A stretch of 64,000 nucleotides of DNA from Alphaproteobacteria bacterium (GTDB lineage: Bacteria; Pseudomonadota; Alphaproteobacteria; Acetobacterales; Acetobacteraceae): the NCBI GenBank assembly GCA_016869735.1, contig VGDL01000004.1, positions 1 through 64,000 on the forward strand. Direction: 5' to 3'. How positions within the stretch are numbered: position 1 is the first letter of the stretch; each line of letters opens with the position of its first letter. The notes under the pieces were generated by a model that was not told the DNA's origin, did not search any database, and worked only from the letters and a program-made list of their open reading frames with translations. Made by a program: the position numbers and the translations under genes. Positions 4,898-52,503 of the stretch are shown piece after piece.

Positions 4898-6304
4898 TCA
4901 AGTCACGCGAAAATTGCTGAATTGCCAAGGATCTTCGCGGTCCAATTCCTCCGGGAAAAGTGTGGCGCGGTCCTGCAGCGGGGTCCATTCGGCATAAACC
5001 CCGGCCATTTCGCCCAGATAGGGCAGGCAGATATCAAGCATCCGCGCATGGTCCAGTTCATCGGCTTCCAGCACCCCAAGTTCAGGGTTTTCCATGGCGA
5101 AGACCACGCCCGCCAGCACGGCAGCGCAAACCTGCAGCGAGGTCGCGTTGTTATGTGGCGCAAGGGCGCGTGCTTCTTCAATCGTCAGGCGTGAACCATA
5201 CCAATAGGCGCCCTTCTTGTGCCCCATCAGCAAGACGCCAAGCTCATCCATGCCAGAGGTGATTTCATCCATCATCAAACGCTTGCTGTCCTGGAGTTTC
5301 CAGTTCTGGCCAGCGAATTCATGCAGCGAAAGCACCGCGTCATCGCAGGGATGATAGGCGTAATGGGCGGTTGGCCGATAGATCACGGCGCCCGCCGCAT
5401 CCCGGCGCGTATAGTAATCCGCGATTGAAATGCTTTCATTATGGGTAATCAGAAAGGCCTGCATCGGGCCTTCCAGCGGGGTCCAGCTCCGCACCCGCGT
5501 CGCCGCCCCTGGGCGCATCAGGTAAATCGCCGCATCGCCGCCGAAATCATGGCGCTTCCCATCTGCGGGCAGCGCCTTTTCATGGCTGCCCCAGCCCAGT
5601 TCCGCCGGTTGGCAGCCTTCACCCGTGAAGCCATCAATGGACCAGGTATTGACGAATTCGCCACGGCGCTTGGCCATGCTCTCCGCAACCTGGGTATCGC
5701 GTTCGGCGATATGGATCACCTTGACGCCAAGATCATGCGCCAGCGCCGCCCATGCCGCGCGGGATTGCGGCACACTGACTTCATGGCCTGTGTCGGCGGC
5801 GATATTCAGCAGCGCCTGCTTCACGAAATGCGAAACAAGCCCCGGATTGGCGCCATGCGTCATGACAGCCGTTGGCCCAGCACCATCCTTGAGCGCGAGC
5901 GCGCTTTCACGCAGCGCGTAATTGGACCTGAGTGATGGGGAAAGCGATGTATCCGTATAGCCGCCGACCCATGGTTCCACGCAGGTGTCCAGGTAAAGCA
6001 CACCAATGTCGCGGCACAGCTTGACTAACGCGACCGAGGATATGTCCACGGAAAGGTTGAGCAAGAAATCCCCCGGCGCCAGGCGCGCGCCAAGCTCCGC
6101 CGCGTAGTTTTCGCGCGTGAGGGGCAGGATGGTGTGGCGAATGCCATGCTGGGCGGCAATCGCCTCCCCCCGCGTATCAGAGGTCAGGATTTCAATGCGG
6201 TCCTTCGGCATGTCGATATGCCGCAGGATCAGGGGCAGCACCCCTTGGCCGATGGACCCAAAGCCCAGCATCAGCAGCCGGCCATCAAAAGCAGCGTGTT
6301 TCAT
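4898..6304 (-). CDS. hss: Homospermidine synthase
   Basis: The 468-residue protein matches bacterial homospermidine synthase of the saccharopine-dehydrogenase-like fold, which makes sym-homospermidine from putrescine using NAD as a catalytic hydride carrier. A Rossmann loop occurs at the N-terminus (LMLGFGSIGQG, about residues 8-18). It is followed by NLSVDISSVALVKLC, a VEPWVGGY segment, and MTHGANPGLVSHFVKQAL, all as I know them from this family. I start it at the ATG at 6304 because GAAGGAAG lies just upstream; the frame itself is open 12 codons further. It lies 16 bases downstream of the ornithine decarboxylase remnant, so the two were probably one operon. Confidence 0.9.
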   Translation of the reverse strand: MKHAAFDGRLLMLGFGSIGQGVLPLILRHIDMPKDRIEILTSDTRGEAIAAQHGIRHTILPLTRENYAAELGARLAPGDFLLNLSVDISSVALVKLCRDIGVLYLDTCVEPWVGGYTDTSLSPSLRSNYALRESALALKDGAGPTAVMTHGANPGLVSHFVKQALLNIAADTGHEVSVPQSRAAWAALAHDLGVKVIHIAERDTQVAESMAKRRGEFVNTWSIDGFTGEGCQPAELGWGSHEKALPADGKRHDFGGDAAIYLMRPGAATRVRSWTPLEGPMQAFLITHNESISIADYYTRRDAAGAVIYRPTAHYAYHPCDDAVLSLHEFAGQNWKLQDSKRLMMDEITSGMDELGVLLMGHKKGAYWYGSRLTIEEARALAPHNNATSLQVCAAVLAGVVFAMENPELGVLEADELDHARMLDICLPYLGEMAGVYAEWTPLQDRATLFPEELDREDPWQFSNFRVT

Positions 6305-6320
6305 GTCACTTCCTTCATTG

Positions 6321-6755
6321 TCACGCCGCGCGCGGCGCATTCAGTATGTCATGTGGTGTGACGCGCAGCGGTGCGTCAGCAATTTCGGTCACCAGGGCGC
6401 GGTCAAAGCCATTGAAGGCGGTGCGCAAAGCCGTCCCATAAGCCCAAAGCTGCCCGATTTCGATCCAATCTCCTTGGCCGATATCGCCGGGCAAAGTCCA
6501 TGGACCTTTCATGATATTTGCCGAATCGCAGGTGGGGCCAAACAACACAAATTCCTGGCACGCGGCGCCCAACCCGCTGCCTTCCGCACGGATCAGGCGA
6601 TGCGGAAAGCGAAACCCAGGTGCGCCGGGACGCAGGCAATAGACCGGCTCTTCCGGGCGGAGGAACCGCACCAGACCATCCACGCTGGGGAAAGACGGCA
6701 GGCTGGCCGAACGGCGCAGCGGAGAGACAGCATTACGGCTACGAATATGGCTCAT
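6321..6755 (-). pseudogene. Ornithine decarboxylase (PLP fold type III) remnant, barrel removed by in-frame deletion
   Basis: The 144-codon frame joins what looks like the extreme N-terminus of an acetobacteral ornithine/lysine decarboxylase (SLPSFPSVDGLVRFLRPEE then PVYCLRP) directly to the family's C-terminal barrel (GAPGFRFPHRLIR, FGPTCDSANIM, GDWIEIGQL, TAFNGFD). Complete enzymes have about 380-400 residues. Some 240 residues between the two parts are missing, including the PLP-binding lysine and the whole alpha/beta barrel. The junction is at about 6626/6627 and is in frame. A TGG (Trp) stands where the family usually has Gly in IEIGQLGAYG. A GTG at 6758 and an ATG at 6755 both follow the ribosome-binding site AGAAGGGG. 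PTCDS, which lines the partner subunit's active site, is kept, but the product cannot be an active decarboxylase. Confidence 0.78.
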
Positions 6756-6758
6756 CAC

Positions 6759-7035
6759 AAAGACCCCTTCTGGAAGGGAGGAAAAGGCGCCCCCGCCGCC
6801 ACACCGCAGCCTTTTGGGCTTGGCGCGCAGCGATGCCTTCAGGGCGCTGCGTTCAAAGCGATGAGGAGGTCATCGCAGAGCGGCAGACAGGCGACACAGG
6901 CGGCTCCCTCGAACATTCCGGCCCATCTTTGGCTGGATCGAACAAAGGACGCGTCCCGTCGTTGCTTGTGGCCCTGAGACAGGGCCTCGCGGCACGTGCG
7001 ATGGCGTCAGCGCCCCCATCCCGGGTAGCGCTGAC
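6759..7035 (-). ncRNA. Structured 5' leader upstream of the ornithine decarboxylase remnant (speF-leader-like candidate)
   Basis: This is the gene-free 390-base gap before the remnant. Reading the minus strand it holds four clean hairpins: GTCAGCGC/GCGCTGAC (8 bp, 7035-7006), GGCCCTG/CAGGGCC (7 bp, loop TCT, 6986-6970), CGATGA/TCATCG with a CCTCC anti-Shine-Dalgarno loop (6875-6859), and CCCTT/AAGGG (6778-6765). The last one folds over the decarboxylase ribosome-binding site. A conserved 'speF' leader RNA is described upstream of alphaproteobacterial ornithine decarboxylase genes (Rfam speF). Position and architecture here fit, but I cannot score the covariance model. It should control translation in response to polyamine status. 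Confidence 0.5.
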
Positions 7036-7038
7036 AGG

Positions 7039-7067
7039 GATATATGCGGAAATAAAATCGAATGCAA
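7039..7067 (-). promoter_or_regulatory. Candidate sigma-70-type promoter for the decarboxylase leader
   Basis: On the minus strand TTGCAT (7067-7062), a 17-base spacer and TATATC (7044-7039) resemble -35 and -10 boxes in a locally AT-rich stretch. Transcription would begin near the first hairpin of the leader. Only sequence resemblance supports this. Confidence 0.35.
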
Positions 7068-7146: not shown

Positions 7147-8043
7147 CTATTTTCCACTGGCAAAAAGGCACAGATACTCCCAGGCGATGGTGGCGGCGGC
7201 CAAGGCGGTGATTTCCGCAACATCATGGGCAGGCGCCACTTCCACAATATCCGCGCCACAAAAATCAACGCCCGCCATGCCGCGCAGGATCGCCTGGGCC
7301 TGCCAGCTTGCCAGGCCGCCAATTTCGGGCGTGCCAGTGCCGGGGGCGAAGGCCGGGTCCAGCCCGTCAATGTCAAAGGAAAGGTAGCAGGGGCCGGCGC
7401 CAAGCACTGCCCGCGCCTCAGCGATGACCGATGCGATGGAGCTTTGGTGGACATCCTGGGCCGAGAGGATGGTCACCCCCTTCCCGCGCGTCCATTCAAA
7501 CATCTCCGGCCAGGCGGGCGCACGGATACCGATCTGCACCATGCGCCGCGGGTCCACCAAGCCTTCCGTAATGGCGTGCCAGAACACGGCCCCATGCGCG
7601 AAAGCCTGCCCGAAATTATCCTTGGACGTATCAAGATGCGCATCTATGTGGAGCAGCCCCACGGGCGCACCAAGCCGCTTGGTCAAGGCCCGCAGCAGGG
7701 CAAGCGTTATGCCGTGCTCCCCGCCAAGCGCCAGCAGATGGGAAAGGCCCGTGGCCTGTTCTTCGATCATCGCCAGGCTTTTGACGATATCCCCAAGGGC
7801 AATATCAAATTCACCAAGATCGGAAAGATCGAGCGCGGCGGGGTCAGCGCCGCTCACCGGATGGCGGCCATCTGTCAGCATGCGGGCGGCGGCGCGAATG
7901 GCGCGCGGCCCATCGCGCGCGCCGGCGCGGTTGGTGGTGCCGATATCAAGCGGCACGCCAGCGATGCAAAACGCAGCGCCCCGGTCCTGCGCACGGGCAC
8001 CAAGAAATGAATGGGGGGCGGCAAAGGTAATGGGCATGGACAT
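7147..8043 (-). CDS. speB: Agmatinase / ureohydrolase family protein
   Basis: The 298-residue protein has the binuclear manganese signatures of the arginase-agmatinase family: GGEHGITL, then DAHLDTSKD (DAHxD), then SFDIDGLDPAFAPGTGTPE (SxDxDxxDPxxxPGxG). Agmatinase splits agmatine to putrescine and urea, which would feed the neighbouring homospermidine synthase. Other guanidino substrates (guanidinobutyrate, guanidinopropionate) cannot be excluded from sequence. I start it at ATG 8043 after GGGAAAGAAG; a second ATG lies two codons further in. It is on the same strand as, and upstream of, the decarboxylase remnant, separated by 390 bases that hold the latter's own leader. Confidence 0.8.
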   Translation of the reverse strand: MSMPITFAAPHSFLGARAQDRGAAFCIAGVPLDIGTTNRAGARDGPRAIRAAARMLTDGRHPVSGADPAALDLSDLGEFDIALGDIVKSLAMIEEQATGLSHLLALGGEHGITLALLRALTKRLGAPVGLLHIDAHLDTSKDNFGQAFAHGAVFWHAITEGLVDPRRMVQIGIRAPAWPEMFEWTRGKGVTILSAQDVHQSSIASVIAEARAVLGAGPCYLSFDIDGLDPAFAPGTGTPEIGGLASWQAQAILRGMAGVDFCGADIVEVAPAHDVAEITALAAATIAWEYLCLFASGK

Positions 8044-8240: not shown

Positions 8241-8270
8241 GCCAAGTGTGACCACTTGGCTTGAAAATGC
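8241..8270 (+). repeat. Partial copy of the 44-bp REP-like element
   Basis: The inner hairpin (GCCAAGTG, loop TGAC, CACTTGGC) and right outer arm (GAAAATGC) are identical to the full copy 15 bases downstream, but the left outer arm is absent. The other bases of the 286-base gap between 8043 and 8329 hold no recognisable gene or RNA. Confidence 0.8.
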
Positions 8271-8284
8271 TTATTGGTCTGATC

Positions 8285-8328
8285 GCATTTTCCGAGTCGC
8301 CAAGTGTGACCACTTGGCTTGAAAATGC
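8285..8328 (+). repeat. 44-bp REP-like double palindrome, full copy
   Basis: Outer arms GCATTTTC/GAAAATGC enclose inner arms GCCAAGTG/CACTTGGC. The left internal loop is CGAGTC, the right one TT, and the tetraloop TGAC. It abuts the stop codon of the minus-strand HNH gene and could serve as its 3' end structure. Confidence 0.88.
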
Positions 8329-13639: not shown

Positions 13640-13683
13640 GCATTTTCAAGCCAAGCGGGATCACTTGGCGACTCGGAAAATGC
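13640..13683 (-). repeat. 44-bp REP-like double palindrome between divergent genes
   Basis: This is the same element as at 8285 in opposite orientation: GCATTTTC, AA, GCCAAGCG, GGAT, CACTTGGC, GACTCG, GAAAATGC. One pair of the inner stem is disrupted. It is the only copy lying between divergent starts (HisD-like and FAD oxidase) and so is in a promoter region. Confidence 0.85.
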
Positions 13684-44825: not shown

Positions 44826-44869
44826 GCATTTTCCGAGCCGCCAAGCGTTTCCACTTGGCTTGAAAATGC
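44826..44869 (+). repeat. 44-bp REP-like double palindrome between convergent genes
   Basis: GCATTTTC, CGAGCC, GCCAAGCG, TTTC, CACTTGGC, TT, GAAAATGC. It fills most of the 64 bases between the stop codons of the second DUF465 gene and trcR, where a bidirectional 3' end would be expected. Confidence 0.87.
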
Positions 44870-52401: not shown

Positions 52402-52445
52402 CCGTTTTCCGAGCCGCCAAGTGAAGCCACTTGGCTTGAAAATGC
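52402..52445 (+). repeat. 44-bp REP-like element, degenerate left arm
   Basis: CCGTTTTC, CGAGCC, GCCAAGTG, AAGC, CACTTGGC, TT, GAAAATGC. The outer left arm has two changes. It is the first of two tandem copies between convergent stop codons and lies directly behind the terminator. Confidence 0.82.
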
Positions 52446-52459
52446 ACCTGTCTTTGGTC

Positions 52460-52503
52460 GCATTTTCCGAGTCGCCAAGTGAACCCACTTGGCTTGAAAA
52501 TGC
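52460..52503 (+). repeat. 44-bp REP-like element, second tandem copy
   Basis: GCATTTTC, CGAGTC, GCCAAGTG, AACC, CACTTGGC, TT, GAAAATGC, a perfect double palindrome. It is preceded by TTTGGTC, as are most other copies, and ends one base before the DUF4159 gene's stop codon. Confidence 0.87.

Follow-up and report, generated by a model that had tools for sequence, protein, structure and literature searches.

The minus-strand open reading frame at 6321-6758 of the window (the whole 64,000-nt stretch of an Acetobacteraceae genome analysed here) is very probably a decaying relic of a second, redundant ornithine decarboxylase gene, ODC2, in a conserved agm-ODC2-hss cluster, with putrescine supplied by another decarboxylase, ODC1. 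The frame opens with GTG at 6758; the start common to the relatives is the ATG at 6755, which gives a product of 144 aa. The genes of the cluster and the landmarks within the relic are as follows.

7147..8040, minus strand: agm, agmatinase/guanidinobutyrase-family ureohydrolase, 297 aa, intact, the upstream neighbour
6321..6755, minus strand: mini-ODC2, the 144 aa left of a fold-type III decarboxylase of 407 aa; stop codon at 6321-6323
6626..6627, minus strand: ODC2 deletion junction, codon 43 CCC / codon 44 GGC (counted from the ATG at 6755)
6444..6446, minus strand: codon 104 TGG (Trp), which is Gly in 19 aligned full-length relatives (counted from the ATG at 6755)
4898..6304, minus strand: hss, homospermidine synthase, 468 aa, intact, matching solved homospermidine synthases at E 4e-164

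Both ends of the relic have their homologue in a single gene, which relatives carry undamaged at the corresponding position, the arrangement expected of a pseudogene formed by internal deletion. In the 145-aa frame, residues 1-46 and residues 44-145 separately match the two ends of one protein of the same genus, and the alignment breaks cleanly between CLRP and GAPGF. Among 59 genomes searched, identity to the nearest six is 74-76% in the N-terminal part and 81-84% in the C-terminal part (in one of the six, G008, the ODC2 gene is split over two contigs). The first-pass annotation had taken residues 1-44 to be homologous to decarboxylase N-termini, which is borne out by this match to the N-terminal end of a same-genus ODC2. 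Full-length ODC2 has 407 aa in G028, of which residues 1-43 and the last 101 are kept in the relic. Compared with four of five near relatives (G028, G015, G009 and G013) 789 nt are missing, and compared with the fifth, G023, whose own sequence has a 6-nt gap, 783 nt are missing; both lengths are multiples of three, in agreement with the in-frame removal of the barrel that had been proposed. The loss itself was thus correctly recognized, and its size, first put at about 240 residues, is corrected to 263 codons (residues 44-306 of ODC2; 407 vs 144 aa). Inside the gap lie the YAVKCN lysine motif (from residue 63), HVGSQ (194), GGG (230), EPGR (269) and NDG (294), so that the PLP-binding barrel with the active-site lysine is absent, and, with the domain limits of ODC2 that we assume, the loss reaches about 30 residues past the barrel into the C-terminal sheet domain (EPGR stands at 269, the last missing residue at 306). 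GPTCDS and FNGF are kept. What is left of the sheet domain contains GPTCDS, has Trp in place of Gly in GAYG, and is devoid of the first part of the domain; PF00278 matches the relic at E 0.00067 with 20.3 bits, below the cut-off of 23, and a profile search with PF02784 gives no match on the window's contig. Among the fold-type III ODC and L/ODC enzymes, 2plj, the L/ODC of Vibrio vulnificus, is matched by the full-length ODC2 of G028 (E 2.6e-43) in an alignment that takes in the Lys, HVGSQ, GGG, EPGR, DG and GPTCDS stretches, and the relic's best matches to solved ODCs span their last 50-65 residues. Unlike fold-type III decarboxylases, the relic has neither the barrel nor the PLP lysine, and it cannot be a decarboxylase.

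The gene order agm-ODC2-hss is retained in near relatives. The match to homospermidine synthases covers residues 5-466 of the 468 in the window's Hss, which is thus full-length, and the gene, whose retention as operon partner had been pointed out in the annotation, starts 16 nt beyond the relic stop with its own AAGGAAG-type Shine-Dalgarno sequence; this short distance makes translational coupling possible. The solved structure nearest to agm is a guanidinobutyrase, and the protein passes one agmatinase equivalog model; a second agm copy is present in G013, G015 and G023. In the available text of one report, odc is listed beside hss for Azospirillum, Granulibacter and Labrenzia, and agmatinase near hss is mentioned for Sagittula (PMC13293326); the odc-hss clusters described there have the same neighbours, but they contain a decarboxylase gene where the window contains a relic. 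The window's genome has two PF02784 genes, LysA and ODC1, and the PF02784 search finds no second or full-length ODC2 in it. ODC1 (G000:C3:82072-83199) is full length (376 aa) with GPTCDS and FNGF, is nearest to lysine/ornithine decarboxylases, and shares 30-33% identity with the relatives' ODC2; the full-length decarboxylase that had been envisaged elsewhere in the genome is thus ODC1 and not another ODC2 copy. ODC1 matches 32 of the 35 genus genomes (only partially in G008; the three without a match are 78%, 85% and 89% complete), which makes ODC2 look redundant, and hss matches 23 of the 35, in G013 and G009 only as far as the contig end. In the ODC1 gene tree the window groups with G015, G023 and G028 (bootstrap 97), and this clade falls inside a small-genome group that also holds genomes without ODC2; in a four-gene tree the window is sister to G028, G023, G015, G008, G009 and G013 together.

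Codon models on a fixed tree for the 144 retained ODC2 codons of 11 genomes point to a change of selection on the window branch. The joint fit (at most 60 iterations) gives an omega of 0.39 on this branch vs 0.13 elsewhere (P 0.02), and omega = 1 on the window branch is consistent with the data (P 0.22); a second fit, in which most branches are held fixed, gives 0.345 vs 0.130 (P 0.015) and rejects omega = 1 (P 0.024). The window-branch omega in the joint fit is 0.07 for hss, 0.07 for agm and 0.05 for ODC1, near the background of each gene. When 13 ODC2 tips are tested, the window alone rises at P < 0.05 (P uncorrected, the window tip having been chosen beforehand); the ratio of G015 is larger (4.3) without reaching significance (P 0.08), and G009 falls (P 0.036). 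Among 12 tips of the hss control, the window ratio is 1.01, G010 is up 1.6-fold (P 0.03), and G008 and G015 are down (P 0.04 and 0.004); since three of the 12 control tips reach P < 0.05, a single P near 0.02 should not be overread. Branch-specific codon changes, at which the relatives agree and the window differs (five relatives for ODC2, four for hss and six for agm), are nonsynonymous in 16 of 35 cases for ODC2, 24 of 106 for hss and 13 of 55 for agm (Fisher, P 0.016 vs hss and P 0.038 vs agm). Across 19 full-length copies 70 positions are invariant, and the relic departs from them at four (D80N, E94Q, G104W and V125I), G104W being the Trp for Gly already noticed in the annotation, which is real; when other tips are left out in turn, 0 to 3 such positions are altered. 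The relaxed selection on the retained codons that had been suspected is thus supported at moderate significance (omega 0.35-0.39 vs 0.13 at P of about 0.02; P 0.015-0.04 over the tests, uncorrected). About 2% of random single changes in the relic codons create a stop, so that an open frame is expected after modest divergence; less than one stop would be expected if roughly a quarter of the branch has been unconstrained, and the open frame is for this reason weak evidence for function.

ODC2 matches at E <= 1e-45 are found in 91 of 299 genomes of the family, and 86 of them begin no later than residue 22 and end no earlier than residue 383. The five partial matches are those of the window, G420, G542, G432 and G534, with those of G420 and G542 beginning 6 and 13 bases from a contig end. 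Among the 91 family genomes with a match, both ends of ODC2 without the middle are seen in the window only, the N-terminal end of which came from the 59-genome search and not from the 299-genome family search. One in-frame stop is listed in eight of the 91 rows (G479, G551, G623, G683, G466, G694, G668 and G495), which could be due to end effects or to further decay. At the genus level, 12 of 35 genomes have no ODC2 match and 11 of these 12 have no hss match either; in the remaining one, G026, hss is present only as a 158-codon end with a stop inside. This stretch (L062:4777-5241) holds the last 158 hss codons at the matching site, beside a second porin-like stretch, and is an independent remnant of the same operon. 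G004 has kept ODC2 and is missing hss; directly after its ODC2, in the place of hss, stands a frame named by eye as acyl-CoA dehydrogenase-like (L061). The agm-ODC2-hss operon decays elsewhere in the genus too. A related-locus search with the window region yielded four distant, uninformative loci, and no paper on a truncated ODC was found in the literature search.

The leader sequence upstream of the relic is far better conserved than the genes. It comprises the following features, the last of which lies between the leader and ODC2.

7039..7067, minus strand: possible promoter TTGCAT-17-TATATC ahead of the leader, noticed by eye
6893..7008, minus strand: core of the conserved leader RNA, which appears to be divergent from, but related to, the speF/ar45 element
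6898..6910, minus strand: Shine-Dalgarno stretch of the leader ORF, GAGGGAGCCGCCT
6853..6897, minus strand: predicted leader ORF, GTG start, 14 codons, TGA stop
6810..6828, minus strand: surroundings of the second deletion junction (about 96 nt), between the leader ORF and the ODC2 start

A consensus promoter scan did not return TTGCAT-17-TATATC and gave TTGCCA-17-GATAAT at 7163-7135 on the same strand instead. As DNA, the leader is found in 73 of 299 family genomes and in 31 of 102 genera; ODC2 is present in every one of the 73, and the other 18 of the 91 ODC2 genomes have no leader match. ODC2 adjoins the leader in 29 of 30 loci fetched, the window's included, and the remaining locus, L152, ends before the gene. 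In 43 of 45 leaders a script finds a Shine-Dalgarno sequence followed by an ORF of 14 to 25 codons that starts with ATG or GTG (not counted among the 45 are L162, in which the motif search was led astray, L148, which is the G015 locus, and G006, where the contig starts within the gene), and in the other two, L150 and L166, which lie outside the limits of the script, both elements are visible by eye. The protein of the window's leader ORF is identical to that of the six nearest relatives, and in the window genome the leader core is nearly unchanged and the leader ORF fully so. An earlier reading of the leader ORF as MGRNVRGSRL..., an open frame through the long hairpin, was replaced by the ORF behind the Shine-Dalgarno sequence on comparison of distant leaders. 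An alternative structure in which the 5' CATCGC would pair with a GCGATG of the leader ORF shows no covariation by eye in L150-L153 and was not supported. Predicted pairs are changed on both sides in 5 of 62 cases in 14 genus leaders (a subset of 21 aligned) and in 6 of 28 cases in 29 wider leaders, a modest and thin covariation support for the base pairs. With up to 3 mismatches allowed, a hairpin repeat, CCAAGTG..CCACTTGGCTTGAAAATGC, has six copies in the window and none in 100 shuffles; the ODC2 leaders of G015 and G009 carry it in their variable loop as well, and hence it looks mobile.

8242-8270, 8300-8328, 13640-13668 (minus strand), 44841-44869, 52417-52445 and 52475-52503: copies of the hairpin repeat

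With E <= 0.01 as the limit, a covariance model built from 29 leaders, R1, has matches in 28 of the 289 class genomes, that of the window among them. Eleven further R1 loci were fetched, in which the leader lies before an ODC1-type gene (four), before ODC2 (four) or directly before hss (two), one locus (L175) being too short. The two hss loci, L173 and L176, have no decarboxylase between the leader and hss, which ties the leader to polyamine synthesis rather than to one enzyme. In four of five ODC1 loci of the genus, that of the window's genome included, a weak R1 match (E 0.02-0.08) lies at a common position upstream of the gene, and the remaining matches of this search are noise-like, with E of 0.19 or more. 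Among seven class loci with ODC-like C-termini (L026-L032), six give no R1 match, and that of L032 is at noise level and far from the gene end. A strict 25-base leader pattern is found in the window only, among 385 class genomes, and the further reach is by the covariance model alone.

The leader is probably a divergent relative of the speF element, because R1 matches at speF loci, the order of motifs is common to both, and the plan agrees with that given in the available part of PMC1273637. The speF element extended with ar45 (RF00518, RF02347) is described there as a conserved 5' block, an insert-bearing stem and a bulged stem-loop of about 80 nt (PMC1273637); these three parts are recognized, with thin covariation, in the present leader, which like speF is positioned upstream of an ODC-like frame. 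At the speF loci L130 and L132, CGCACGTGCC, a stem with a variable insert, GCAACGACG and a T-rich stretch follow each other in the same order as in this leader. R1 reaches three loci whose RF00518 matches exceed the Rfam cut-off, at the same place and with E 0.006-0.04; its alignment to L132 stops short of the CGCACGTGCC block. On the other hand, Rfam speF has no credible match in the leaders of the window or its relatives (below the gathering score, at a chance-level E of 5-6.5), which rules out that the leader is speF as modelled in Rfam, and the leader differs from speF by its Shine-Dalgarno sequence with an ORF of 14-25 codons and by fronting ODC2 and hss as well. In L130 and L132, within the speF match, the Shine-Dalgarno-like GAAGAGG is followed by ATC CTT GCC where many Acetobacteraceae leaders have ATG TTG GCT, and the frame after GAAGAGG in L130 runs 13 codons to a stop as judged by eye; at these two loci a leader ORF might conceivably start with AUC. 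The odc1 motif (uORF-25-1) is another alphaproteobacterial RNA structure with a short ORF upstream of an ornithine decarboxylase; according to the accessible text, its ORF always has 11 codons and begins with a UUG two bases ahead of the UUG that starts the main frame (PMC8632094), whereas the leader ORF here has 14-25 codons and an AUG or GUG start and lies well upstream, so that the leader falls outside odc1 as described there. In Salmonella, translation of the speF leader ORF, orf34, prevents Rho-dependent termination, as stated in the available portion of PMC6386406. The window is similar in having a leader ORF upstream of an ODC, and control by ribosome position would be plausible by analogy, although orf34 has 34 codons vs 14 in the window and the likeness is one of plan. 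The literature searched, which included few subscription journals, contained no account of this leader in Acetobacteraceae or upstream of hss.

The spacer behind the leader ORF has suffered a deletion of its own. In eight relatives, 171-194 nt separate the stop of the leader ORF from the ODC2 start and fold at -96 to -116 kcal/mol into long GC-rich hairpins, usually two. These hairpins are missing in the window, where the spacer is 97 nt long, about 96 shorter than in three near relatives of the eight, and folds at -44 kcal/mol. Both deletions presumably strike the same transcript, one in a control region and one in an enzyme.

In the proposed course of events, a 789-bp in-frame deletion has removed the barrel and the PLP site of ODC2 and a deletion of about 96 nt has taken the larger part of the sequence that forms hairpins between the leader ORF and the start of ODC2, both being observed, as is the intactness and constraint of hss, agm and the unlinked ODC1. 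ODC1 would now make putrescine, which Hss would condense to homospermidine, and the ODC2 relic would be decaying without enzymatic function. Transcription would begin ahead of the leader, and the leader ORF, the relic and hss would be translated in turn, probably from one transcript; the open relic frame may then be tolerated, and perhaps favoured, with ribosomes that translate the relic keeping the transcript running to hss. We read the open frame as kept by chance or because hss follows. A relic should be viewed against the facts that no stop or frameshift is present and that omega = 1 is rejected in one of the two fits (P 0.024 vs 0.22), with a window branch that mixes the time before and after the deletion. 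Compatible with a relic is the possible, less probable case that the frame has been selected as a cis-acting translated bridge to hss, such that only in-frame losses of ODC2 are tolerated. Tentatively, such a bridge might exclude Rho, deliver ribosomes to the hss start and couple the leader-controlled transcript to hss, and it would accord with the start of hss 16 nt past the relic stop behind its own Shine-Dalgarno sequence, with a leader core and leader ORF nearly and fully unchanged, with the strong constraint on hss (omega about 0.065 in the second fit), and, by analogy, with the protection of the Salmonella speF transcript from Rho by leader ORF translation (PMC6386406, in its available portion). 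However, a single deletion is in frame by chance in one of three cases, and G004 and the hss-less genomes show simple loss of parts of the unit.

The annotation had left open two fates of the product, a dead remnant and a small dimer-interface protein. The relaxed selection, G104W and the redundancy with ODC1 favour the dead remnant. In ODCs, the GPTCDS stretch and the AYG tyrosine contribute to the active site of the partner subunit. Both are kept in the relic, and its frame is open, as would suit a functional 144-aa protein that binds another decarboxylase subunit and lends or blocks interface residues; this is considered extremely improbable because the sheet domain is incomplete and no ODC2 partner is encoded in the genome, ODC1 being just 30-33% identical to the relatives' ODC2, and exactly these retained codons evolve faster. 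Moreover, the Trp at codon 104 aligns with Gly387 of human and mouse ODC (the number being counted along the alignment). For Gly387 of mouse ODC, the available text names alanine as the sole tolerated substitute, and a bulky residue at the equivalent position makes the amoebal enzyme inactive and partly destabilises its dimer (PMC3289617), which speaks against a dimer partner. Single-sequence AlphaFold2 on the 144-aa relic gives a mean pLDDT of 34.8, too poor for structural inference. It is also very unlikely that the deletion is an assembly error and that the genome has the complete gene: the genome is in 131 contigs, but the junction is clean and lies inside a contig of 96.6 kb, a second deletion is found in the same transcript, and the excess of amino-acid changes, including Gly to Trp, is not a product of misassembly.

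A decaying ODC2 is in itself nothing out of the ordinary: it shows clearly how an operon sheds a redundant enzyme while its last gene continues to be required. Its surroundings matter more, namely a leader RNA with a conserved ORF, unmatched by Rfam, which is found before ODC1, ODC2 or hss in Alphaproteobacteria and of which the window genome is a natural deletion mutant. It may be suggested, as a rather doubtful extension, that the deletions have made the structural gene part of the leader, with the leader RNA, its ORF, the short spacer and the 144-codon bridge setting the expression of hss, that the decarboxylase step has moved to ODC1, and that the leader represents a leader-peptide branch of the speF class controlling ODC1, ODC2 and hss across Alphaproteobacteria. 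Ornithine, putrescine and other metabolites tested show no measurable binding to speF RNA in the available part of that study (Corbino 2005; PMC1273637). If true, a leader-peptide branch of speF would explain the lack of a ligand that binds the RNA directly, and a translated leader ORF is a testable alternative to metabolite binding for the speF element.
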